DNA of 13,205 nt. Source: an uncultured Selenomonadaceae bacterium (GTDB lineage Bacteria > Bacillota > Negativicutes > Selenomonadales > Selenomonadaceae). Made by a program: the position numbers and the translations under genes. Shown one piece after another: positions 150-12,862 of the stretch. The stretch's first letter is position 1, and each line of letters starts with the position of its first letter. The notes under the pieces are model-generated. The model made no database searches, had not been told where the DNA came from, and saw nothing but the letters and a program-made list of their open reading frames with translations. The stretch covers positions 1-13,205 of the forward strand of contig CAJORE010000174.1 of the NCBI GenBank assembly GCA_905236595.1, given 5' to 3'.

Positions 150-178
150 TTGAACGCCGTCGCCCTTTATGCTATATT
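150..178 (+). promoter_or_regulatory. Sigma70-type promoter of the TadG-like gene
   Basis: TTGAAC at 150-155, a 17-base spacer, and TATATT at 173-178. Transcription would start near 185, giving a leader of about 100 bases before the ATG at 289. An inverted repeat ACGAATT/AATTCGT (116-122 and 132-138) lies directly upstream of the -35 box and could be an operator; that part is inference. Confidence 0.7.
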
Positions 179-288
179 TACGAAAAATCACCCACGGATG
201 TTTTTGTTTTGTGGCAAAAGCGCGGGGAGGCTCACAAAATAAATTTTCGCAAATTCCCCAAAGTATATCTTATCGAGGAGATGTGTTT

Positions 289-1869
289 ATGCACAAGACG
301 TTGGCGAATATCAGACAGCGCGCCGAAAAGGGCGCAATGCTGGTTACGGCGGCTTTAGGCGTTACGGCATTGATGTTCGGCACGGCGATAGCTGTGGACT
401 TGGGCAGTTTTTATGCACGCAGTTCCGAATTGCAAAACGCTGCCGATTCGGCGGCATTGGCCGGTGCCTCAGTTTATCTTGAAGGCGGCGATACAAAAAT
501 TATCCCGCTGTCGCGAGCCACTTTCGGCAGCGGCGATTCCAGCCTGTCCTTTTCCATCGACGGCACCAATTACGATTTCAAATCCTACGGCACGACGAGC
601 AAGGCCGACGCCAAGGCGGCAAATTACGTCGACTCCAACGATTCGGCCGTGACTTTCTCCGACAACGCGACGACTACGGCGTGGACGGCCGCCGTGACGG
701 CCACCATGGCCAACGGCAAAACAGCCTCTTATTCCAACGCTTATTGTTATCGGGTGGTTTTGCACCAAGACCTGCCCATGCACTTTGCCAAATTCTTCGG
801 CATTGATACCTATCCCATTAACGTAACGGCGCTTGCTCTCGTCATGCCCGGCGAAACCACCGATCCGTCCAAGAACATCGACGAATTCATCAAAGTGGTC
901 AACGCCAACATTTTTAAGACGATACCGAACTTATACTGGGAAACGATTCACGACGGCAGCCAACAATATTACATCAACAACGCCGGCCAAAAAACCTATT
1001 ACAAAGGCTACGGCGATCGCAACGGCAGTTATTTCACCACCAGCTATCAGTCTTACGTCGTTGACATCACCAAAAGCAAAACCCTCGCCGGAAATTATTT
1101 GGCGTACAAGAACAGCGACAAAAATAAGTTCTGCGCCACCGGCATAACCGGCCATCGCTCAACCAACCTGTACCAACTCGAATACACGCTAAACAGCGAT
1201 TTAATCCGCAAAAAAGCAACCGGCGGCGTCGAAATAACCGGCTTGTTCCTTGACCGCCCGAATGTCGGCTCCAACAGCACCATTCGCGGCACGGTCTTAA
1301 ACATCACCGGCGAAAGCTTGAGCGACTACAACGACGTTCCCTTGTTCATGCGCTTTGAAAGCGAACCGATCCGCGTCGGCTCCAGCCTTACTTACGTTCA
1401 ACCGATTACGATAAACGTTGACGCTTACCAAGAAAAGCCATTGGTGATTGCTTACGACGGGCCGGATCCGAACCGCACCGCCAGCGATGCCCCGAAGGTC
1501 GATACCAAAACCGGGGCTTACGGCGGCAATACATCCACCGCCACCACGCAGTCGGCGCCTTATACCATAAATTTGAACAATGCGGATTTTAACGGCGTCA
1601 TTTATGCTCCCTACAGCAAAGTTACCATTACCGGCACGGGCAAAATAACCGGCTTCATCATGGCCGCCGAAATCGACGACCAAACGACCAACAGCAGCAG
1701 CCGCACGACGCTGAAAAGCCACTCCGTCGAATTGCCGACCTGGGGTGCAACGCCGCGTGATTCAAGCAACAACCGCTTCGATTACACGGTGAAAAACATA
1801 TCCAATACTTACACCGTTGTTTATGACGACTTCCACAATTACACCATGCCGACGACAACTACAACCTGA
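289..1869 (+). CDS. TadG-like (Flp pilus family) surface protein
   Basis: A 526-residue envelope protein. Residues about 16-37 form one hydrophobic segment, followed by DLGSFYARSSELQNAADSAA. This is the signature of the N-terminal Tad/TadG domain, which anchors Flp/Tad pilus accessory proteins in the inner membrane by a pilin-like helix. The rest is Thr/Ser/Asn-rich and beta-like. Near residue 435 the stretch FNGVIYAPYSKVTITGTG resembles the C-terminal passenger region of PilX/DUF7305-type proteins. The ATG at 289 is chosen because GAGGAG at 275-280 lies 8 bases upstream and the membrane segment then sits at the N-terminus; the in-frame ATG at 169 would lie inside the promoter. It has its own promoter and no pilus-machine genes (tadA, tadB, tadC) within this window, so it appears to be an isolated gene. 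The precise role (minor pilin, adhesin or surface protein) is not shown by the sequence. Confidence 0.75.
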   Translation: MHKTLANIRQRAEKGAMLVTAALGVTALMFGTAIAVDLGSFYARSSELQNAADSAALAGASVYLEGGDTKIIPLSRATFGSGDSSLSFSIDGTNYDFKSYGTTSKADAKAANYVDSNDSAVTFSDNATTTAWTAAVTATMANGKTASYSNAYCYRVVLHQDLPMHFAKFFGIDTYPINVTALALVMPGETTDPSKNIDEFIKVVNANIFKTIPNLYWETIHDGSQQYYINNAGQKTYYKGYGDRNGSYFTTSYQSYVVDITKSKTLAGNYLAYKNSDKNKFCATGITGHRSTNLYQLEYTLNSDLIRKKATGGVEITGLFLDRPNVGSNSTIRGTVLNITGESLSDYNDVPLFMRFESEPIRVGSSLTYVQPITINVDAYQEKPLVIAYDGPDPNRTASDAPKVDTKTGAYGGNTSTATTQSAPYTINLNNADFNGVIYAPYSKVTITGTGKITGFIMAAEIDDQTTNSSSRTTLKSHSVELPTWGATPRDSSNNRFDYTVKNISNTYTVVYDDFHNYTMPTTTTT

Positions 1870-1992: not shown

Positions 1993-2024
1993 GGGCTTGT
2001 TTAACAAACAAGCCCTATTATTAT
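1993..2024 (+). terminator. 10-bp hairpin with short T-rich tail upstream of rlmN
   Basis: 1993-2002 (GGGCTTGTTT) pairs perfectly with 2006-2015 (AAACAAGCCC) around AAC and is followed by TATTATTAT. This could be a weak intrinsic terminator for transcripts entering from the TadG-like gene. The same bases also carry a plausible promoter, TTGTTT at 1997-2002 and TATTAT at 2019-2024 with a 16-base spacer. Confidence 0.5.
1997..2024 (+). promoter_or_regulatory. Candidate rlmN promoter
   Basis: TTGTTT at 1997-2002, a 16-base spacer, and TATTAT at 2019-2024. A transcript from here starts near 2031, downstream of the ATG at 2023. This is one reason to place the rlmN start at 2086. The -35 box lies in the 5' arm of the hairpin. 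Confidence 0.4.
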
Positions 2025-2085
2025 GGAAAACCTCAAGCCCTTGCCCGAACCTTCGCCACAAAGAACGACACGATTTAATGACACG

Positions 2086-3129
2086 ATGAAGAAAAATATT
2101 TTCGGCCTTTCGCCGACCGAACTTGCCGACACATTCTCGCCGCTTAACCTGCCGCCTTTTCGTGCCAAGCAGGTTGCCAAGTGGCTGTACCAAAAAGGCG
2201 CAACGGATTTTGCCGCAATGACCGATTTGAGCAAAGAGTTGCGAAGCGTCCTTGCGGACAATTTTGTCATCAACGCCGCCGAAGTTGTGCGAGAGCTACA
2301 TTCCGCCGACGGTGCCACGAGCAAATTTCTCTTGCGCTTATCCGCCGATGCCGCCGTCGAAACGGTGCTTATGCGGCACGATTACGGCAACAGCCTTTGC
2401 GTATCGACCCAAGTCGGTTGCGCCATGGGGTGCCGCTTTTGCGCGTCGGCGCTGAACGGTTTCGCCCGCAATCTGACAGCCGCCGAAATTTTGGCGCAAG
2501 TGATTTTCGCGCACCGGCTATTGCAAGCGGCCAAACAAAAGCTTGACACAATCGTCGTCATGGGCATGGGCGAACCGCTTATGAATTATGACAACGTGCT
2601 GAAATTCATGCGGACACTTCACGAAGCGTATGCGCTAAACTTTTCGTACCGGGGGATAACTTTGTCCACCAGCGGCATCGTACCGAACATTTATCGTTTG
2701 GCCAAGGAAAATATCCCCGTAAATTTGGCAATATCGTTGCACGCGCCGACCGACGAGTTGCGCTCCGAAATCATGCCCGTCAACCGCAAATTCCCCGTTG
2801 CCGAAGTCGTGGCGGCCGGAAAATATTACGGTGACACCACCAAACGACGCGTGACCTACGAATACATTTTGCTTGGCGGCATAAACGACAGCGAACGGGA
2901 CGCGGACAAGTTGGCAAAATTGCTGAAGGGCCAGCTTGCCGGCGTAAATCTGATTCCGTTCAACGGCGTAAACGAGCGGGAATTTGTCGCCCCCGCCGCC
3001 GCAAAATGCGAGGCTTTCCTAAAGACGCTGACGGATAAACACGGCATTGCGGCCACCGTTCGCCGCGAGATGGGTGCCGACGTCAACGCCGCTTGCGGAC
3101 AGTTGCGGCGGCAACAAATTATACCTTGA
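2086..3129 (+). CDS. rlmN: 23S rRNA/tRNA adenine-C2 methyltransferase RlmN
   Basis: Radical SAM enzyme that methylates C2 of adenosine 2503 in 23S rRNA, and A37 in some tRNAs (known for the family). The 347-residue protein carries the iron-sulfur motif CAMGCRFC with Cys112, Cys116 and Cys119. It has the conserved LCVSTQVGC context with Cys105 seven residues before the cluster, and the C-terminal Cys337 in NAACGQL. Cys105 and Cys337 correspond in spacing to the two mechanistic cysteines of E. coli RlmN (118 and 355), which separates RlmN/Cfr from other radical SAM proteins. GMGEPLMNYDNV is the usual SAM-binding stretch. The ATG at 2086 gives the typical N-terminus MKKNIFGLSPTEL; the upstream in-frame ATG at 2023 lies within hairpin and promoter sequence. 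Neither start has a strong ribosome-binding site. The gene is probably monocistronic, and the bamA promoter overlaps its stop codon. Confidence 0.95.
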   Translation: MKKNIFGLSPTELADTFSPLNLPPFRAKQVAKWLYQKGATDFAAMTDLSKELRSVLADNFVINAAEVVRELHSADGATSKFLLRLSADAAVETVLMRHDYGNSLCVSTQVGCAMGCRFCASALNGFARNLTAAEILAQVIFAHRLLQAAKQKLDTIVVMGMGEPLMNYDNVLKFMRTLHEAYALNFSYRGITLSTSGIVPNIYRLAKENIPVNLAISLHAPTDELRSEIMPVNRKFPVAEVVAAGKYYGDTTKRRVTYEYILLGGINDSERDADKLAKLLKGQLAGVNLIPFNGVNEREFVAPAAAKCEAFLKTLTDKHGIAATVRREMGADVNAACGQLRRQQIIP

Positions 3130-3304: not shown

Positions 3305-5518
3305 TTGTTTTTAACCCAAAAAAAATATCGGCATTTGGGATTGGCGGTTGCACTTTGGTTCGCTACATTCGGCACGGGGATGCCTCACGCCGAAATGGCG
3401 GCACCGCAAGAAAACACCGCCGACAACGAAAATGTGAGCGCCAAAACCGCGCTTGACAACGATGCCAACGTCGCTGTTGTCAAAAATGCCGAATCCGCCG
3501 ACGAAACTGCGGCGCCCAAGAAAAATACGGCTTGGTGGGCGCGGGACGACGAAGAAGATGCCGCCGCCAAGCAAACAACCGACAACGCAAACGCAACCGC
3601 CCCCGGCGATGAAACGGTGACCCGCCCCGCCAAGATAAAAGGGCCGTGGTGGACGCGCACCGACGAAGATGTCGAGACGGTCAACAAGTCGGACGGGCAA
3701 CCGGTTGCAGAGACGCCGCCCGACGATAAGGGCGCCGAAACCGCCAAGGAAACCGAAGCGGAACCGCCCAAGCCGATTGATTTGGAAAACGCCAAGGATA
3801 TTGCCAAGCCCGACCCCCAACGCGCCGAGACTTGGGGGGACAATCGTCCGCAAGATACGGAAGTGGCCGATTCGATGGAGCGGCTGAACGGCAAAACCAT
3901 TGTGGACGTTGTTTTCGACGGCGCGACCAAAACAACTTACGCCACGGCGCGCACGGCCATTTCCGTACGACCGGGCAGCGAATTTTCGGCGGAAAAGATA
4001 AGCGCCGACCGTGATGCCATTTTCGACACGGGCTATTTTTACGATCTGTACCCCAGCTTTGAAGAAGTGCCGGAAGGCGTCATTGTCACCTACAACGTAC
4101 TCGAAAATCCGATACTCACCGATATAACGGTGACGGGCAACAACGTCGAATCAAACGAAACCATTGACAAGTTGCTCACATTGCAAAAAGGCGAAATATT
4201 AAACAGCAACGTCCTGCATGACAACATGACGGCCATCACCGACCAATATCGAAAAGACGGCTACATATTGGCCAAGATTACCGATATGAACATCGACAAG
4301 GACGGCAAGCTGACCCTTAAAATAAACGAGGGTCTGCTTGAAGGCTACAAGGTAAAGGGCAACAAGAAAACCAAGGACTATGTCATATTGCGGGAAATGC
4401 GCCAAAAGACCGGCGAGCCTTTTAACGCGAAACTGGCGCGCCGCAGTATGCAACGCGTTTACAACTTGGGCTTTTTCGAGGACGTCAACATCAAGATGAA
4501 TCCCGGCGTCGAACCGAACGCCGTGGTAATGGAACTTGATGTCAAAGAAAAACGCACCGGGACCTTCGGCATCGGCGCCGGCTACAGCAGTACCGACGGA
4601 ATCATCGGTATGGTAAGCGTCAGCGACACAAACTTGGGCGGCCGCGGCGATGCTGTCCGCGTCACCTACGAAATGAGCGGCGATGATGAAGATGCCCACG
4701 GGTTCACCTTCAGTTTCCGCCGCCCGTGGCTTGATTCCAAGGAAACCGCCGCCACGCTCCGCCTGTACAATCGCACTTACGAATACGACGATTATGACAG
4801 CAAAGGCCATTTGAAAGAGGAGTATATGCGGAAATATTCCGGCGGCGAAATTACCCTCTCGCGTCCGGCCAGCGAATATTCCACGAATTTCCTGACGTTC
4901 CGCCGTCGCGAGGACAGCTACGTCAAACACGTCAGCAACGGTAACGCCGGGGATCGAAGTAGCGATTGGGCATGGCGCAACAAAAATTTCGGCATAACCC
5001 ACAGCGTTGTCTTGGAACACGTCACCGATACCCGCGACAATGTCTACAATCCGACAACGGGCGGCCGCGTGAGTTTGTCCGGCGAATTTGCCGGCATCGG
5101 CGGTGATTTTTCATTCCAAAAATACACCATCGAGGACAACCGCTACATTAAAGTCGGTCGGTCGCAAGTAGTGGCGCTTCGCGGCCAATACGGCATCGGG
5201 ACGGGAAACATCTCCGAATTCAACCAGTACCGCATCGGCGGACAAAGCTCCCTGCGCGGCTATCGCGACGATCAGTTCCGCGGCGATCGCATGGTTTTGG
5301 CAACCATCGAATATCGTTTCCCCATTGTCACCAAAGTACAGGGAGCAATATTTACCGATTGGGGCGGCGCTTGGGACAAAGGCATTGTCCCCGAGGACAG
5401 CAAAGCGAGCATCGGCGCCGGTTTGGCGCTCAATACGCCCATAGGTCCTTTGCGTCTCGATTACGGTTACGGTTCGCAAGGCGGGCGTGTACACTTCACG
5501 GTCGGCGGCACCTTCTGA
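3305..5518 (+). CDS. bamA: Outer membrane protein assembly factor BamA (Omp85)
   Basis: The 737-residue core of the machine that folds and inserts beta-barrel proteins into the outer membrane. It begins with a signal peptide (about 1-29). An acidic, Pro/Ala/Asp-rich linker follows to about 190, containing WWAR-DDEED (Trp77-78) and WWTR-TDED (Trp115-116). Three POTRA domains follow at about 194-269 (NGKTIVDVVFDG), 270-343 (LTDITVTGNN) and 344-418 (KVKGNKKTKDYVILREM). The 16-strand-type barrel runs from about 425 to the end. LRGY at 650-653 is the conserved (V/L)RG(F/Y) motif of loop 6, and the chain ends in Phe, as outer-membrane barrels do. The start is TTG, chosen for GGAGG nine bases upstream and the signal peptide directly after it. 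Three POTRA domains instead of the five of proteobacterial BamA fit a diderm Firmicute; TamA is the alternative, but the gene neighbours favour BamA. Confidence 0.92.
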   Translation: MFLTQKKYRHLGLAVALWFATFGTGMPHAEMAAPQENTADNENVSAKTALDNDANVAVVKNAESADETAAPKKNTAWWARDDEEDAAAKQTTDNANATAPGDETVTRPAKIKGPWWTRTDEDVETVNKSDGQPVAETPPDDKGAETAKETEAEPPKPIDLENAKDIAKPDPQRAETWGDNRPQDTEVADSMERLNGKTIVDVVFDGATKTTYATARTAISVRPGSEFSAEKISADRDAIFDTGYFYDLYPSFEEVPEGVIVTYNVLENPILTDITVTGNNVESNETIDKLLTLQKGEILNSNVLHDNMTAITDQYRKDGYILAKITDMNIDKDGKLTLKINEGLLEGYKVKGNKKTKDYVILREMRQKTGEPFNAKLARRSMQRVYNLGFFEDVNIKMNPGVEPNAVVMELDVKEKRTGTFGIGAGYSSTDGIIGMVSVSDTNLGGRGDAVRVTYEMSGDDEDAHGFTFSFRRPWLDSKETAATLRLYNRTYEYDDYDSKGHLKEEYMRKYSGGEITLSRPASEYSTNFLTFRRREDSYVKHVSNGNAGDRSSDWAWRNKNFGITHSVVLEHVTDTRDNVYNPTTGGRVSLSGEFAGIGGDFSFQKYTIEDNRYIKVGRSQVVALRGQYGIGTGNISEFNQYRIGGQSSLRGYRDDQFRGDRMVLATIEYRFPIVTKVQGAIFTDWGGAWDKGIVPEDSKASIGAGLALNTPIGPLRLDYGYGSQGGRVHFTVGGTF

Positions 5519-5543: not shown

Positions 5544-6827
5544 ATGATTTTGAAGCTATCATTGGCACTAATATTTGCCGCAACCCTATCCTGCCATGCC
5601 GTCGTCGCCGCCGCCGAGCCGACCGTCGACACGGTCGCCGTCACGGTGGTGACGGCAGCCGGCAAATTGCCGCCGCCCGTCGCTAAACGCATGGAACAAA
5701 GCGTTGCCGTTGTGGCCGAGCAAATTTTATTGGGCAATCTCACCGCACAGGTGGCGTTGCAAAAAACGCAAAAAGAGCAAATTATCCGCGAAGTGTTCGA
5801 CAAAATTCTGACCGGCTACAGCGTCCAAAGCGTCACGATTTATCCGGGCAGCGATACGGCGGTAATCGTGCGGCTTATCCCCTGGAGCGTTACCATAAAA
5901 TCCGTGACGGTAAACATTTCCGTCGAAGGGGTGACTCCCGAAACGGAAAAGATTGTGCGACGCGATTTGGCGGGCGCGGAGAAATTATTCGCCGACATCT
6001 ACATCGGTATGCCGCTTTTGGCCACGGATTGGACCCACGGCATACTAAAGCGCGAACTCGGTAAATTCATGGCCGAACACCTGCCCGAATTCCGGGCGGA
6101 TTTTGATTTGACGCCGACCCATGAAGCAATCGTAAACATGACGGTCTATCCCAAGATGCCGGTCGTCAGGAATGTCAACCTGTTCATGCGCTCCGACACC
6201 GTCCCCACCTTTGCACTCTTAGGTTATCGGAGCATATTGGAGCGCAAAACGAATACGCTGGTGGGGGTGCCGGTGGCCTTCGTCAAGCGTCACCGACAAG
6301 AATTGAGCGACGATATTGCTTCGTTTTTGGACGGGCAGGCCGATTTTCGACGCTTGGGCATGAAAACCGCCTTGACCATGGACGTCGGCGAAGAATTGTC
6401 CGTAACGTGCCGCTCCGACAGCGAACGGTTCCGGCTAAGACTTGAAGGCTGGCTTGACGTCGGCAAAAGTGACGACGAAAATGCCCTGAAATTTCGCCTA
6501 CACGCCGGAACAAAAGTTTCGCCGACGGATGAGTTCTTCATCTTGGCCGATTTTGCGCCGGAGGACGTGAAGTTTTCGTGGAACGTCGGCTACGGTCGCG
6601 ATTTAAGCTCCAAAACCAACGTCGCCTTTCGCTACGATCCGCGAGCGCATCAGCCCATATTCGACGTAACGCAATATGTGTTGCCGAAACTGCGGCTGCG
6701 CTACGAACGCAATCGCGTGACGCGCCTTGACGAATGGGGCGTAAGATACGGCTTGCACGATTTTATGAGCCTTGAATACATCATCAACCATCGGGAAAAA
6801 TGGGTTCGGCTTATCGGAAATTTTTAG
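5544..6827 (+). CDS. Unrecognised secreted protein, POTRA-like and barrel-like
   Basis: I recognise no named family for this 427-residue protein. It has a clear signal peptide (MILKLSLALIFAATL, likely cleaved after Ala24). A helical stretch follows at about 45-90. Next come alternating beta/alpha segments reminiscent of POTRA domains (VQSVTIYPGSDTAVIVRLIP, then IKSVTVNISVEGVTPET, then PVVRNVNLFMRS near 206). From about 270 to the end it has amphipathic strands with alternating hydrophobic residues and charged turns, ending in Phe (RLIGNF), like the C-terminal signal of outer-membrane barrels. The barrel part is far shorter than in BamA. The ATG at 5544 lies 25 bases after bamA and gives the signal peptide directly; an in-frame ATG at 5487 inside bamA would add a non-hydrophobic leader. 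The ribosome-binding site is poor, so translation may be coupled to bamA. Its position between bamA and the ompH genes suggests a role in outer-membrane assembly; this is inference. Confidence 0.8.
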   Translation: MILKLSLALIFAATLSCHAVVAAAEPTVDTVAVTVVTAAGKLPPPVAKRMEQSVAVVAEQILLGNLTAQVALQKTQKEQIIREVFDKILTGYSVQSVTIYPGSDTAVIVRLIPWSVTIKSVTVNISVEGVTPETEKIVRRDLAGAEKLFADIYIGMPLLATDWTHGILKRELGKFMAEHLPEFRADFDLTPTHEAIVNMTVYPKMPVVRNVNLFMRSDTVPTFALLGYRSILERKTNTLVGVPVAFVKRHRQELSDDIASFLDGQADFRRLGMKTALTMDVGEELSVTCRSDSERFRLRLEGWLDVGKSDDENALKFRLHAGTKVSPTDEFFILADFAPEDVKFSWNVGYGRDLSSKTNVAFRYDPRAHQPIFDVTQYVLPKLRLRYERNRVTRLDEWGVRYGLHDFMSLEYIINHREKWVRLIGNF

Positions 6828-6958: not shown

Positions 6959-7426
6959 ATGGTCGAAGTAAAAAAACAACATGTGAAAATTGTCAGCATC
7001 GTCATAGCTTTGGTTTTCGTCGGCAGCGTCGTGGCGCTTGCGCTTACGCAATCCGGTTCCGGCATAGCTTCGGCGGCTGCTTCGTCAAACGTTGGCGTTA
7101 TTGATTACAATGCCGTAATGGCACAGCACCCGAAAATGGAAGAAGCCCGCAAAGCCTTCCAAGAAGAGCAAGCCAACGCTCAGAAAGATTTTGAGGAAAA
7201 ATCCGCCAACATGAGCGACCAAGAAAAGCAGGATTATTATCGTCAGACCATTAACCGGCTCCAACAAAAAGACTCGGAGCTTTTGGATCCCATTAAACAA
7301 TCCGTTGAAGAGCAAATCAAAGCCGTGGCCAACGCCAAAGGCTTGAACGTTGTCATCGCCAAAGACGCTGTCTTGTACGGCGGCACGGACATCACCCAAG
7401 ACGTAGTGAAGAAATTGAGCAAGTAA
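6959..7426 (+). CDS. OmpH/Skp family periplasmic chaperone, copy 1
   Basis: A 155-residue protein with one N-terminal hydrophobic segment (about 10-31). An Ala/Ser-rich stretch follows, in which a signal peptidase site is possible near residue 39. The family signature begins with VGVIDYNAVMAQHPKM. A Glu/Lys/Gln-rich helical region (about 58-125) matches the coiled-coil tentacles of Skp. The closing part LNVVIAKDAVLYGGTDITQD is the typical OmpH C-terminal beta hairpin and helix. Skp-type proteins are trimers that hold unfolded outer-membrane proteins on the way to BamA (known for E. coli). It has a consensus Shine-Dalgarno and its own promoter, so it is probably the most highly expressed of the three copies. 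The long Ala/Ser linker leaves open whether it is released or stays anchored in the inner membrane. Confidence 0.9.
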   Translation: MVEVKKQHVKIVSIVIALVFVGSVVALALTQSGSGIASAAASSNVGVIDYNAVMAQHPKMEEARKAFQEEQANAQKDFEEKSANMSDQEKQDYYRQTINRLQQKDSELLDPIKQSVEEQIKAVANAKGLNVVIAKDAVLYGGTDITQDVVKKLSK

Positions 7427-7490: not shown

Positions 7491-8744
7491 TTGACCGACG
7501 GTAACGAAAAACAGGAGCAAACGGTTAATCCCGCGCCTTCCCGTACAAAACAAATCATTGCGGGGGCGGCGACGGGCATGGTGCTGTTTGCCGTCGCAGG
7601 CTGGTTTTGCGCGGCGCATTTTTTGACGGCGGACGAAAAGCCGCCCGGGGGAGCCATCGCCTACGAAGTCGGCTTTGTCAACAACGCCAAGGTTTTGGCG
7701 GCGCATCCGGCGTACGACAAATTGCAGGAGCTATACGGCCAACGCCGCGTCCTAAAAAGCGAACTTGCCGCCTTGACCCAAGAACCGCTCATAGTCAAGC
7801 CACCGGAAGCGGCGGAAGAACCCTTCGATGATTCCGTCTGGCAAAAAAACGCGCAGAACATTATCGGCCAACGGGCGGAGATTGAACGCAAGCGCAAAAA
7901 AGCCACGGAAGAATATCGCCAAGAAACCGACGCGGCCTTTCGCGAACGAAGGAGCGCCATTGACGGTGAATATCTAAACGCCATCTTAAACATTCGCTTA
8001 AAGCTCCAAAACGCCGATGTCATGCGTCTGCCCCCCGAACAAGTGGACGAACTCAACCGGGAAATGGACGAGTTGCAAAAAGAACGCGGCCAACGGCAAA
8101 TTGCGCTCAACGAGGAACGCGAAGCCGAAATTGCCGCTTTCGCCGAAAAAGTCGTCACCGCCGAAATCGGCGATTGGCGGGAGAATTTGCAAAAATCCAA
8201 AGCCGCTTTGATAGCCGAAGCCGCCAAACGACAAAGCGCGGCGCAAGAGCGCAATGCGTCGGTAATGGAAGCGCAGATGCAAATTTCCCGGCGTCGTCAA
8301 GCGGCGCTGAAAAAGAAACGCGACCTTATCCTTTTGGAGGGACGCATTGCCCGTTTGCAAAAACGAATGGCCGCCGACGTCGAAGGACGAGCGGCGAAGT
8401 TAGCCATAATGCACGGGCTGACGTTGATTTTTGCCGCGCCTTCCGAAGATACGGCAAACGGCTTTACCTTTGTCGATAAAGAGACGGTCGAGTTTGCCTC
8501 TTCCCTCACCGTAGCAACAATACCTGCTTCGGCAATGGATTTGACCAAGGAACTTGTTGAAGAGATGGCCACCGTCGCTTTTACGGACGACGATGACCCC
8601 GCCGAAGACCAAGCCGATGACGCCGACGAAACCGACTACGCCGATGAAATTGACGAAGCCGAAGGCGACAGCAAATACGACGAAACCGGCGGATACGAAC
8701 AAGAGAACGACACCGCAATCGCAAAGGAAACGACGGAACCTTAA
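7491..8744 (+). CDS. Large membrane-anchored OmpH-like coiled-coil protein
   Basis: A 417-residue protein with a hydrophilic N-terminus, one transmembrane helix (about 22-44) and an OmpH-like opening VGFVNNAKVLAAHPAYDKL (from about 60). A very long Glu/Arg/Lys/Gln-rich coiled coil follows (about 115-310). A degenerate OmpH end (LAIMHGLTLIFAAP, then MDLTKELVEEM) lies at about 315-370. The last 45 residues are strongly acidic (DDDDPAEDQADD and similar). It is over twice the length of ordinary Skp/OmpH proteins. Topology would place the coiled coil in the periplasm. The start is TTG, preceded by AAGGCGG/GAGGGG. It lies between two normal ompH copies, so it likely arose by tandem duplication and insertion of the long coil; this is inference. 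Its role could be a holdase, or a spacer linking inner membrane, peptidoglycan and outer membrane. Confidence 0.8.
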   Translation: MTDGNEKQEQTVNPAPSRTKQIIAGAATGMVLFAVAGWFCAAHFLTADEKPPGGAIAYEVGFVNNAKVLAAHPAYDKLQELYGQRRVLKSELAALTQEPLIVKPPEAAEEPFDDSVWQKNAQNIIGQRAEIERKRKKATEEYRQETDAAFRERRSAIDGEYLNAILNIRLKLQNADVMRLPPEQVDELNREMDELQKERGQRQIALNEEREAEIAAFAEKVVTAEIGDWRENLQKSKAALIAEAAKRQSAAQERNASVMEAQMQISRRRQAALKKKRDLILLEGRIARLQKRMAADVEGRAAKLAIMHGLTLIFAAPSEDTANGFTFVDKETVEFASSLTVATIPASAMDLTKELVEEMATVAFTDDDDPAEDQADDADETDYADEIDEAEGDSKYDETGGYEQENDTAIAKETTEP

Positions 8745-10357: not shown

Positions 10358-11386
10358 TCAGTATATCGGCTCGCTGTGCAAAACATATAACCCGTTAGCT
10401 TCCAGTTCGCTTCGCACCCAATCAAAATGATCGTTTATCTCGTCGTAAAACTGCCGTCTAAAGTTCATATCATCAAAAATCGTTGCCGTGCTGTAAGTCA
10501 CCGATCGGTCGATGTCATCAAAGTCTTCGATTTCAAAATAATTGGCGTGGATGCGCCGCAACCACTCGTTGTACCGTTCGTCAATGTCGTCGCTTTGGAT
10601 GCCCTTAAAGCAAATCATAAGCAACTGCTTTTGCCGATCGGAAAGACCGGTCACCGGTTCGCAACTTACCGCCTGTATAATGCGGAAAACCGCTTCGGCC
10701 GCCTCCAAGAATTCGTCCCAGTTTTTGCGCCCGCCTAAAAACCGTTCGCCGCTTTTCCACCACAAATACGGCATATCCGGACAATGCATCGCCGCCAAAT
10801 GACCAATGGGGCCGCCAACTTTGTCAAAACTCGAAACCACGCCCAAAAGTTTGCTCAACCCCGACGTCTCCGACACCTTATCCAAAACCTGCCCAATCAT
10901 CGAACCTTGGGCGGCGAACATCAAATTTTGCACCAGGTTTATCATGTTGTTGACGCCGGAAAATTCTTGGTGCGCCCAAGTATCCGCAAAAACGTGAAGC
11001 CCTATGCCCAAGCGGAACGAAAAATTACTGTTGTCAAGAGTTGTCCCCAAAAGCCGCCGCGCCAATTTTTGCGACAACACGCTGTTTTTTTTGCAAACCA
11101 GTTTTTCGCGCTCCGTTTCACCGACCAGCCCGGGCAAAAAATGAAAAGGAATCCATATTTCGCCGCTCCCCTTGCCGGTGATATTGCCCCACATATTTTG
11201 GCAGGAGTAGCGGACGTGTACGCCTTTGGCTATGTTGGCCTCTTCTTCGGCATCGGAAAAGGGATTGGAATCAAAATTGTCATCGACAAGCTGTGAGCTG
11301 TGGGCAATCATTTTGGCATTGGCACTGCAAAATTTGCCCCAACGGGACAAAACGTAAATCGTCCCAAAATGAAAATCTATATCCAT
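10358..11386 (-). CDS. DUF6765-like protein, possible metal-dependent hydrolase
   Basis: A 342-residue protein beginning MDIDFHFGTIYVLSRW. This resembles the start of DUF6765 proteins (M-x-x-D-x-H-x-x-G-T-Y), a family of unknown function. It has no signal peptide. His and Asp residues are grouped as in metal sites: His6, Asp35-Asp36, His131/Asp135/His139 (LHVFADTWAHQ, an H-x3-D-x3-H pattern) and His196/His201/Asp204 (GHLAAMHCPD). Such helical His/Asp clusters recall zinc-dependent phospholipase C and S1/P1 nucleases; that link is inference. The start at 11386 is chosen because AGAAGG lies nine bases upstream and the family N-terminus starts there; longer frames begin in non-family sequence. 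It lies downstream of the LCP gene on the same strand, about 100 bases apart, and converges on lpxD. No clear promoter was found. Confidence 0.7.
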   Translation of the reverse strand: MDIDFHFGTIYVLSRWGKFCSANAKMIAHSSQLVDDNFDSNPFSDAEEEANIAKGVHVRYSCQNMWGNITGKGSGEIWIPFHFLPGLVGETEREKLVCKKNSVLSQKLARRLLGTTLDNSNFSFRLGIGLHVFADTWAHQEFSGVNNMINLVQNLMFAAQGSMIGQVLDKVSETSGLSKLLGVVSSFDKVGGPIGHLAAMHCPDMPYLWWKSGERFLGGRKNWDEFLEAAEAVFRIIQAVSCEPVTGLSDRQKQLLMICFKGIQSDDIDERYNEWLRRIHANYFEIEDFDDIDRSVTYSTATIFDDMNFRRQFYDEINDHFDWVRSELEANGLYVLHSEPIY

Positions 11387-11427
11387 TACCCATGACCTTC
11401 TTAAACTGTTCGCAAAACCGACTATGC

Positions 11428-11466
11428 AGCGCCGTTTGCCGCATCTTGAATTCGACAAACGGCGCT
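11428..11466 (-). terminator. 11-bp hairpin downstream of the LCP gene
   Basis: 11428-11438 (AGCGCCGTTTG) pairs perfectly with 11456-11466 (CAAACGGCGCT) around a 17-base loop, 22 bases beyond the LCP stop codon. No T-run follows the stem on the minus strand. A smaller hairpin ACATT/AATGT with six T residues lies between this stem and the stop. Together they could partly terminate LCP transcripts or separate them from the DUF6765-like gene. Confidence 0.45.
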
Positions 11467-11488: not shown

Positions 11489-12862
11489 CTACTGCGTTTT
11501 GCCGGCATTCATGTCCGGCGTCGGCACATCACCCGCATCAACCGGCAAAGTCGGCGGCGGTGCCGGAGGCGACGTCCTGTTCTCGGCGGGTACCGTCGGC
11601 GCAGGCGTCGGCGCAGGCGTTGGCGAATCGTATTCCGTTGGCGGAGCTGCTTGCCGCGTATCGGCCTCACCACCGTAATAATCGGCAAAGCGGTCGTCGC
11701 CCGTTTTGCTTGCGCTTTGCTCCGCACCGTCAATGTCGTTGTTCCTTGTCGTCGTCGCGCCCGTTTCTTTATTCGGCTTCACCTTATGCTTATCGACTTT
11801 CCACGCCGACCGACCGTCGGTGACGGCTTTGCCGATTGACGTATCGCCGACGGGAATATCGGTGGCGCCGGCGGGAATAGATTCTTCATATTCGCGGGCT
11901 TCGCGTTCCAAATTGTTCATCATCGTCCGCGAAAGTGTCACGCCAAGCGTATCGGCCAACGCGATACGCAACTTATTGACATCGGGTATCCAATAGCTGA
12001 CGCCTTCGATGTAAAGCGGGCGCCCCGGCACCATTTCCGTCTCAAAGCCGTTCTTTTGCGCGTTCCTCAGCGTACCCACGAGTTCCAAAATCTGCCGCAC
12101 GGACAAATCGGTACGCACGGCATCCGCCACTTCCGCAATTAAGCTCGGCAACTTGGTGATGATGGTCGGCGACGTAACTTTATCCGCCACGGCGCGCACA
12201 AATTTTTGCTGTCGCTTTATGCGGCCGATGTCGCCTTCCTCGTCACGGTAGCGAACATAAGTGACGGCGGTTTTGCCGTCCATGTGCTGCATACCCGGGC
12301 GCAAATCAATAAGCAACCCGCCGTCGTCGTCCCACGGATCTTCGTAATACATCCGCTTTTCAACTTCAATGTCAATGCCGCCAATGGCATCAATTACTTT
12401 TTTGAAGGCTTGCGTATTGACTATGACAAAATGGTCAACGTGCACACCCAAAAAAGACTCCACCGTGCGTTCGGTCAGCCGTTCGCCGCCGTAAGCGTAA
12501 GCGGCGTTGATTTTATCATAGCCGATGCCGGAGATTTTCACGCGGGTATCGCGGGGAATTGAAAGCAGCGCCGCTTTGTCGAGCGTGGGATCGATGGTCG
12601 CGACCATAAGCGTATCGGAACGCCCTTTGTCGTCAGCGCGTTCGTCAACCCCCATAATCATTATCGTGGCTTTGTCATGCGCCGTCAGCAAAACAACCTC
12701 TTCCGATTGTTTCTTTTCTTTGGCCGCCGGTTTTTCCGTAAGCCCCGAAGACGCAAACATCGCGCCCGTAATAACGGCGGTTATAAAACAAAATATAAAA
12801 AGAATCCACGGCCAAATACGCCGCCGCTTTTTGGAGCGGTTTGTGTCGGGTAAATTTTCCAA
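11489..12862 (-). CDS. LytR-CpsA-Psr (LCP) family wall-polymer ligase
   Basis: A 457-residue protein of the LCP family, which transfers lipid-linked glycopolymers to peptidoglycan outside the membrane (known for the family). A basic cytoplasmic start (KKRRR) precedes one transmembrane helix (about 17-38). The LCP domain spans about 64-235. It has IMGVDERADDKGRSDT with Arg81 and Asp83, SIPRDTRV with Arg104, YDKINAAYAYGG (Asp116, Lys117, Asn119), and YVRYRDEEGDIGRIKRQQ with Arg204, Arg206, Asp207, Arg214 and Arg217. These are the polyprenyl-phosphate and metal-binding residues of the family. From about 335 the tail is disordered and polar, and it ends Pro/Thr-rich (PTPAPTPAPT and PPAPPP), as in wall-spanning regions. 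The start is TTG with GAGGA six bases upstream. A consensus promoter lies about 85 bases upstream. The attached polymer in a diderm cell is unknown. Confidence 0.93.
   Translation of the reverse strand: MENLPDTNRSKKRRRIWPWILFIFCFITAVITGAMFASSGLTEKPAAKEKKQSEEVVLLTAHDKATIMIMGVDERADDKGRSDTLMVATIDPTLDKAALLSIPRDTRVKISGIGYDKINAAYAYGGERLTERTVESFLGVHVDHFVIVNTQAFKKVIDAIGGIDIEVEKRMYYEDPWDDDGGLLIDLRPGMQHMDGKTAVTYVRYRDEEGDIGRIKRQQKFVRAVADKVTSPTIITKLPSLIAEVADAVRTDLSVRQILELVGTLRNAQKNGFETEMVPGRPLYIEGVSYWIPDVNKLRIALADTLGVTLSRTMMNNLEREAREYEESIPAGATDIPVGDTSIGKAVTDGRSAWKVDKHKVKPNKETGATTTRNNDIDGAEQSASKTGDDRFADYYGGEADTRQAAPPTEYDSPTPAPTPAPTVPAENRTSPPAPPPTLPVDAGDVPTPDMNAGKTQ

Follow-up and report, generated by a model that had tools for sequence, protein, structure and literature searches.

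The window analysed here, a stretch of 13,205 nucleotides from an uncultured Selenomonadaceae bacterium (assembly GCA_905236595.1, contig CAJORE010000174.1), carries on its forward strand, at 5544-6827, an open reading frame (ORF) for a protein of 427 amino acids (aa), here named X, which is conserved, linked to bamA and apparently exported. Comparison of genomes indicates that X is inherited together with g204, a protein of about 200 aa with a single transmembrane (TM) segment, usually encoded between a sigma70-family protein and BamA. The best inference, held with a confidence slightly short of even, is that X is the outer membrane (OM)-side component of a three-protein module around bamA, the other two members being the sigma70-family factor and g204 as a single-pass inner membrane (IM) protein; in a trans-envelope sigma circuit at BamA, concerned with envelope stress or the surveillance of OM assembly, X would serve on the OM side as partner or sensor.

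The ORF for X starts with ATG, and the first 25 residues (5544-5618, forward strand) form a probable Sec signal peptide, recognised by eye from its AxA-type end, AVVAAA/EP. The bamA gene (POTRA and Omp85; 3305-5518, forward strand) lies directly upstream, with matches to PF01103 (3.7e-42) and PF07244 (1.8e-31) and a match of its product to TIGR03303 (6.2e-88) slightly below the cut-off; an ompH/skp-like gene (6959-7426, forward strand; PF03938, 9.9e-16) follows downstream. The description given by the sequence-only reading, a secreted-type protein of 427 residues without a named family between bamA and ompH, was confirmed in each part: searches of Pfam and NCBIfam up to an E-value (E) of 1 returned no family for X. 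Some Selenomonas records (P0010, P0017, P0134) bear the label "acylphosphatase", which neither Pfam nor NCBIfam bears out for X and which is regarded as a stray annotation. The gene is single-copy in the window's own genome (G000:C174).

Homologues of X at E <= 0.01 number 183 in a protein search; among the best 120, identity falls as low as 42%. Named relatives include Selenomonas, Mitsuokella, Pectinatus and Anaerovibrio, as well as entries labelled "Firmicutes bacterium" and "Bacillota bacterium", which suggest Negativicutes as the class and Bacillota as the phylum of the genomes sampled. In 300 sampled genomes of the class, Negativicutes, profile A1 (45 members) detected X in 238, among them 182 of the 226 good ones; 237 are left after removal of G289, whose 78-residue match (E 0.0037) is chance-like. 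The homologues and the 237 class genomes together show that the family is not due to chance. A broader profile, A2, found X in 22 of 398 genomes from the phylum, Bacillota, namely 13 of 17 Negativicutes and nine of 381 others. PF01103 is present in 100 of the same 398 genomes, including all the 22 with X; at the sensitivity of A2, the other 78 Omp85-positive genomes yield no match to X, nor do any of the 298 Omp85-negative ones. Since these 22 X-positive genomes are all Omp85-positive and some lie outside the class, X is best seen as a protein of outer-membraned Bacillota and not of one class; the earlier suggestion of a lineage-specific protein had to be given up, given the nine sampled genomes from other classes.

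The gene for X is tightly associated with bamA: in 112 of 118 loci bamA is directly upstream, its ORF ending no more than about 600 bp away; four of the other six lie at a contig edge and two are unlinked. By sample, the figures are 75 of 80 loci on named contigs (the best 80 of 97; three at a contig edge, two unlinked), 29 of 29 hand-picked divergent class loci (30 genomes were picked by hand among the 238), and eight of nine loci outside the class (one at a contig edge). A median of 6 bp separates the two genes in 133 loci, not all from different genomes. The family and its bamA linkage can be considered solid on this comparative basis, and the expectation that homologs would be tied to bamA held; the further idea of a partner of BamA draws on this strong linkage, of which partnership is a natural reading. 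Within the window's own family, 20 of 21 X-negative genomes tested carry BamA. Most sampled members of one genus of this family, g12, are without X, and their loci show TamB and BamA with no sigma or g204 (L113-L115, L117-L118, L120-L129); G145, G279, G284 and G291 of the same genus retain X, so that the genus lends itself to a study of how the module is lost. Further Omp85-like ORFs with weak BamA matches, mostly some 540-560 aa long, were seen in L132-L140 of the Selenomonadaceae; they look two-partner-secretion-like.

The usual gene order around X is TamB - sigma - g204 - BamA - X - OmpH, where sigma is a protein of about 215 aa of the sigma70 family. The sigma proteins scanned matched Sigma70 regions 2 and 4; after the sigma70 superfamily model, they are closest to the RpoH-, WhiG- and RpoS-type models, all below their cut-offs. 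TamB, sigma and g204 were all recognised in 80 of the 86 X-positive loci with more than 3 kb of upstream sequence, sigma and g204 in one, g204 only in three, and none of them in two; nine of ten further X-positive loci have all three and one (L048) has g204 only. In X-negative loci, 42 short ones and five longer re-reads of the same genomes place TamB upstream of BamA, with no sigma or g204 in the stretch seen; other X-negative loci stop before the TamB position. Outside the class, g204 accompanies X in nine of nine genomes, eight of which show the order sigma - g204 - BamA - X and the ninth of which is split by two contig ends; in one of the eight (L172) sigma lies 3.2 kb away and TamB was not seen. 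The cluster is also found in separate blocks: TamB-sigma-g204 lies apart from BamA-X in L061 and L063, and TamB-sigma-g204-BamA apart from X in L036 and L046. In all four, although X and g204 have come apart, sigma and g204 stay together beside TamB.

The association of X with g204 was also followed genome-wide. Profile A3 for g204 gave 264 matches at E <= 0.1 in the 300 class genomes, 234 strong and 30 weak; the weak ones (E 8e-6 to 0.1), two in X-positive genomes (G153, G243) and 28 in X-negative ones, were not counted. On this scoring, both proteins occur in 234 genomes, X only in three, g204 only in none and neither in 63 (Fisher p 9e-62, kinship ignored). The genomes with X only are the window's own (G000), G153, where the weak g204 match is a C-terminal piece near a contig end, and G243. 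To take kinship into account, a BamA tree with 101 rows was used, in which X changes state at least nine times on supported branches: in nine independent contrasts g204 is concordant in 7-8 and opposite in none (sign-test p 0.008-0.016), with weak g204 matches scored as absent and some placements unsure owing to long branches. L152 and L170 (second copies or near-repeats) and L210 (bamA cut) were omitted from the contrasts, and L197 has no g204 state. In the g204 scoring that covered genomes outside the class, 26 genomes were not counted as g204-positive, their best match being weaker than E 1e-6 and devoid of the cytoplasmic domain. Co-inheritance of X with g204 thus appears solid from genome comparison.

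By its sequence, g204 would be a single-pass membrane protein. A hydrophobic stretch is present in each of 99 proteins (Kyte-Doolittle only), with a median of 66 residues before it and 107 after; the mean number of K/R is 4.1 before and 1.0 after, consistent with the positive-inside rule and an N-in orientation. The region beyond the hydrophobic stretch consists for 68% of P/A/E/V/T/S/Q and leads to a C-terminal helix-like motif around P-x-x-E-M-Q-K-L-M-Q-x-A-G-K-x-L-R. The strict pattern is found in 92 of the 99 proteins, and six more display L-x3-A-x3-L by eye; the exception, L169, comes from a genome without X. Indeed, the motif occurs in none of the five genomes having g204 without detected X (L169 and L209 being one genome), a comparison that is post hoc, as the motif was read off X-positive genomes, and small (n = 5). 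Its absence where X is undetected suggests that the g204 motif may dock on X.

The C-terminal part of X points to a possible contact with BamA. The beta-rich C-terminal domain (residues 293-427; 6420-6824, forward strand; about ten strands by crude Chou-Fasman prediction) ends with a segment similar to the tail of TamB (residues 367-427; 6642-6824, forward strand), which hhalign aligns C-terminus on C-terminus with an E of 5.8e-6 against a broader TamB set, and of 0.0018 against a first, narrower one. The last 61 columns score 42.2, whereas 100 shuffles average 17.7 and reach 29.3 at most, and the segment preceding the tail also aligns to the TamB tail (score 33.2, E 1.7e-4). A hidden Markov model (HMM) of the X C-terminal domain, run over 4,638 ORFs, matched 29 non-X ORFs at E <= 0.1; 26 of the 29 are TamB, which accounts for 151 of the ORFs searched, relatives among them not being independent. 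These TamB matches lie mostly, not always, near the TamB C-terminus, and the Pfam TamB family is weakly matched by two of 44 X members (best 0.057). The TamB-like tail is therefore well supported as a similarity at the sequence level, not as family membership. The likeness concerns the last ~61 residues, which align with TamB C-termini from the same and related clusters; differently from TamB (DUF490), X has neither an N-terminal IM anchor nor a long beta-taco, and its 427 aa open with a signal-peptide-like stretch and include three alpha/beta repeats, compared with about 1,360-1,550 aa for the TamB ORFs read, some of them cut by the stretch end. One unlabelled ORF near a module locus (L202:9869-10462) matches the X C-terminal domain profile as well (E 0.0025).

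The C-terminal strand of E. coli TamB pairs with beta1 of TamA by cryo-EM (PMC12800296), the TamB tail is modelled on BamA beta1 in a Borrelia TamB-BamA hybrid barrel (PMC13382580), and, in the same Borrelia context, TamB DUF490 binds POTRA2 and POTRA3 of BamA (PMC11361582). The TamB-like tail of X would allow a test of the idea that the BamA gate is a shared docking site.

Taken together, these data are compatible with the following scheme. X would reside at the OM and contact BamA through its TamB-like tail; the C-terminal motif of g204 would dock on X, and the cytoplasmic part of g204 would hold the sigma factor, as read from neighbourhood and topology only. A change in BamA or in its traffic might then shift the contact between X and g204 and free sigma, which would alter the expression of OM-assembly genes. 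RpoE-RseA-RseB and FecI-FecR-FecA are known trans-envelope sigma circuits, with which the proposed module shares a sigma factor, a usually adjacent single-pass TM protein and a periplasmic or OM-side partner encoded nearby; however, its sigma is of a different type (RpoH-/WhiG-/RpoS-like, below the cut-offs), g204 matches no known anti-sigma family, the putative OM-side partner is a new family and the module surrounds bamA itself. RcsF and OM lipoprotein sentinels report on BamA; they share with the proposed circuit the idea that contact with BamA may report assembly activity, but inspection by eye reveals no clear lipoprotein signal in X, and its architecture is unrelated.

A more specific version, tentative and rather unlikely in our estimate, is that the related tails of X and TamB compete for one BamA strand, so that X would gauge the load on the OM assembly gate, or the damage to it. 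The route of the signal, part of this same tentative version and equally uncertain, would run from the C-terminal peptide of g204 through the periplasm-spanning linker and the membrane helix to a dedicated sigma. If true, it would represent an ancestral OM-assembly surveillance circuit of diderm Firmicutes, apparently absent from Veillonella parvula, the model species studied in the laboratory.

Several observations weigh against the sigma circuit. Its main local weakness is the lack of g204 and TamB in the window's own genome: in this assembly, 76.6% complete, the profile search did not find g204, and TamB was not found with one single-protein query, a weak negative. A sigma orthologue is present (G000:C101:877-1521; 55% identity, E 1.6e-69) on a contig of 3,053 bases, with no g204 after it, and rlmN (2023-3126), not TamB-sigma-g204, lies upstream of bamA in the window. 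Another class genome, G243 (79% complete), has X without a credible g204 match. Outside the class, five genomes (G311, G494, G600, G649, G679) keep sigma and g204 beside BamA with no genome-wide match to X, so that the sigma-g204 pair can exist alone; OmpH immediately follows BamA in four of them, and the G679 contig breaks off within bamA. In four X-positive loci (L035, L039, L048, L187) g204 adjoins bamA, with neither sigma nor TamB recognised upstream of it; sigma and g204 are thus not always neighbours, and the co-occurrence of sigma with X was judged by locus, not genome-wide. Searches with g204 gave no Pfam family above cut-off, no NCBIfam family and no known anti-sigma family; a PDB match to streptolysin O (E 0.016) was discarded as low complexity, since it is confined to positions 59-149 of the profile, which are largely TM and linker. 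No clear promoter shared by sigma and g204 emerged from 35 of the 82 intergenic regions, where the dyads in excess of shuffled sequences (8 versus 5-6) are AT-rich runs. Finally, TonB-dependent receptor barrels, used as a control, also align with the X C-terminal domain (score 27.7, E 0.0017), more weakly than TamB, so that a generic OM-strand component may contribute to the X tail. The small, post hoc motif comparison belongs with these reservations. As a separate observation, a TATATAG-like stretch recurs before g204 (L199, L196, L188, L193 and others; by eye), in regions where only AT-rich dyads exceed the shuffles.

The alternative that survives best, possible although on balance unlikely, is that X serves BamA as a structural accessory in place of the missing BamB-E: its repeats would brace or extend the periplasmic ring and its TamB-like tail would pair with the barrel, with sigma and g204 only regulating or tethering the same operon and no sensing through X. 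The tight adjacency to bamA, the POTRA-like topology (crude prediction) and the TamB-like tail are all in line with this proposal, as is the lack of BamB-E reported for diderm Firmicutes in PMC5007114 and for V. parvula in PMC10665443. However, an assembly partner need not disappear jointly with g204 in several independent lineages, nor should its absence coincide with the loss of the g204 C-terminal motif.

Less probable still, and in our judgement improbable, is that X and g204 mechanically bridge or tether the IM to BamA, reaching across the periplasm as TonB or TolA do, sigma being a passenger or an independent regulator. The long P/A/E/V-rich stretch of g204 and its conserved C-terminal peptide do have the architecture of a reach-across linker, and the four X-positive loci with g204 beside bamA and no recognised adjacent sigma agree with it. 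A pure tether, however, leaves unexplained why sigma adjoins g204 in all five genomes without detected X (L206-L210).

The remaining alternatives concern the fold of X, which was divided by eye into three segments followed by a tail domain. The segments D1 (residues 27-115; 5622-5888), D2 (residues 117-206; 5892-6161) and D3 (residues 207-292; 6162-6419), all on the forward strand, are similar to each other: hhalign aligns D1 with D2 at E 5.4e-11, D1 with D3 at E 2.8e-8 and D2 with D3 at E 3.5e-8, over 82-88 columns and with scores of 55.9, 42.5 and 42.3 versus shuffle maxima of 32.8, 29.3 and 29.0 (60 shuffles each). The presence of three mutually homologous units of ~90 aa is accordingly regarded as a solid deduction from the alignments. 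Each repeat is roughly beta-alpha-alpha-beta-beta by averaged Chou-Fasman propensities, a crude prediction. The pooled repeats have no credible match in PDB or Pfam, and three PDB sequence searches with the X family gave none, none and two chance-like matches (E 1 and E 5.4).

The sequence-only reading had proposed an Omp85-like mini protein, with a POTRA-like alternation of strands and helices, a possible small barrel and a terminal Phe. X and BamA indeed share the gene cluster and a general layout, in which alpha/beta repeats in tandem, POTRA-like in topology (crude), precede a beta-rich C-terminal domain; the alternating helices and strands stand as topology, but POTRA homology was not detected. 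D1-D3 against the three BamA POTRAs gave non-significant hhalign E of 0.041-0.39; Pfam gave no POTRA or Omp85 match for 45 members (E 0.1) or for 44 (E 10), and neither family appears in the 25 of 38 matched families listed for 123 single repeats. Similarly, the beta-rich C-terminal third agrees with the crude prediction, but its similarity to the BamA barrel was not borne out (hhalign E 0.058; score 17.5 versus a null mean of 18.1), and the TamB C-terminus is what it resembles instead. The Omp85 barrel domain PF01103 is not matched by X up to E 1. The [V]RG[FY] sequence is the loop motif of the Omp85 barrel, and neither RGF nor RGY occurs in the 427 aa of X. The terminal Phe is found in 120 of 121 near relatives, X included, but is not a rule of the family, since 53 diverse aligned members end in L (26), F (23), I (3) or W (1).

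A different barrel, that is X as a small independent OM beta-barrel of about ten strands with periplasmic repeats, an ordinary client of BamA, is very unlikely. The about ten predicted strands have a high strand moment (crude prediction), the C-terminal residue is aromatic or hydrophobic, and barrel families are weakly matched, namely the TonB-dependent receptors (E 0.0017) and, in Pfam and by single members, OMP_b-brl (0.051) and OmpA_membrane (0.16); however, the TamB tail is a far better match (E 5.8e-6), the BamA barrel is unmatched and the co-inheritance with g204 would be left unexplained. A true mini-Omp85, with POTRAs and an Omp85 barrel, is hardly credible: the bamA neighbourhood, the POTRA-like topology, which by itself is still compatible with it, and the terminal Phe of near relatives would fit, but homology is rejected by Pfam, NCBIfam, PDB sequence searches and hhalign, and the ~135 aa that remain after the repeats are far too few for a barrel of 16 strands.

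The proposed circuit is of interest because diderm Firmicutes, which are without BamB-E, are used in debates on the origin and loss of the OM. With a sigma factor, a membrane-spanning g204 and an apparently exported X around bamA, and X and g204 co-inherited genome-wide, the sensing of OM trouble in these organisms becomes directly testable; among the literature matches listed, no paper deals with the sensing of OM-assembly trouble in diderm Firmicutes. Titles and abstract openings of the literature matches listed, with subscription papers and supplements outside their scope, do not name X, g204 or this sigma. PMC5007114 describes a conserved cluster of diderm Firmicutes with unnamed hypothetical genes and no Bam lipoproteins; these genes may include X, g204 or sigma. 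For V. parvula, mlaEFD-tolC-tamB and no BamB-E are given in PMC10665443, and the numbering in PMC5491611 (Vpar_0526 TamB, 0527 BamA, 0528-0530 Skp) has no room for sigma, g204 and X, suggesting that the strain lacks the module, an absence that would account for its being missed in studies of that model. Vpar_0528, considered as a Veillonella member of the X family, was dropped, being Skp by the same numbering.

Other genes of the window lie outside these subjects. A TadE/G-like protein (169-1869, forward strand; PF13400, 4.4e-7, and a weak DUF7305 match) is encoded upstream of rlmN, outside the OM cluster. Downstream of the ompH/skp-like gene, a 417-aa OmpH-like protein (7491-8744, forward strand) greatly exceeds Skp in length and has an acidic C-terminus and only a marginal Pfam match (E 0.34); its relatives are the middle one of three OmpH genes in many loci. 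After lpxD, a DUF6765 protein and a LytR-CpsA-Psr protein are encoded on the opposite strand (10358-11458 and 11489-12862, reverse strand), so that the genes next to lpxD in many relatives are not next to it in the window's genome.

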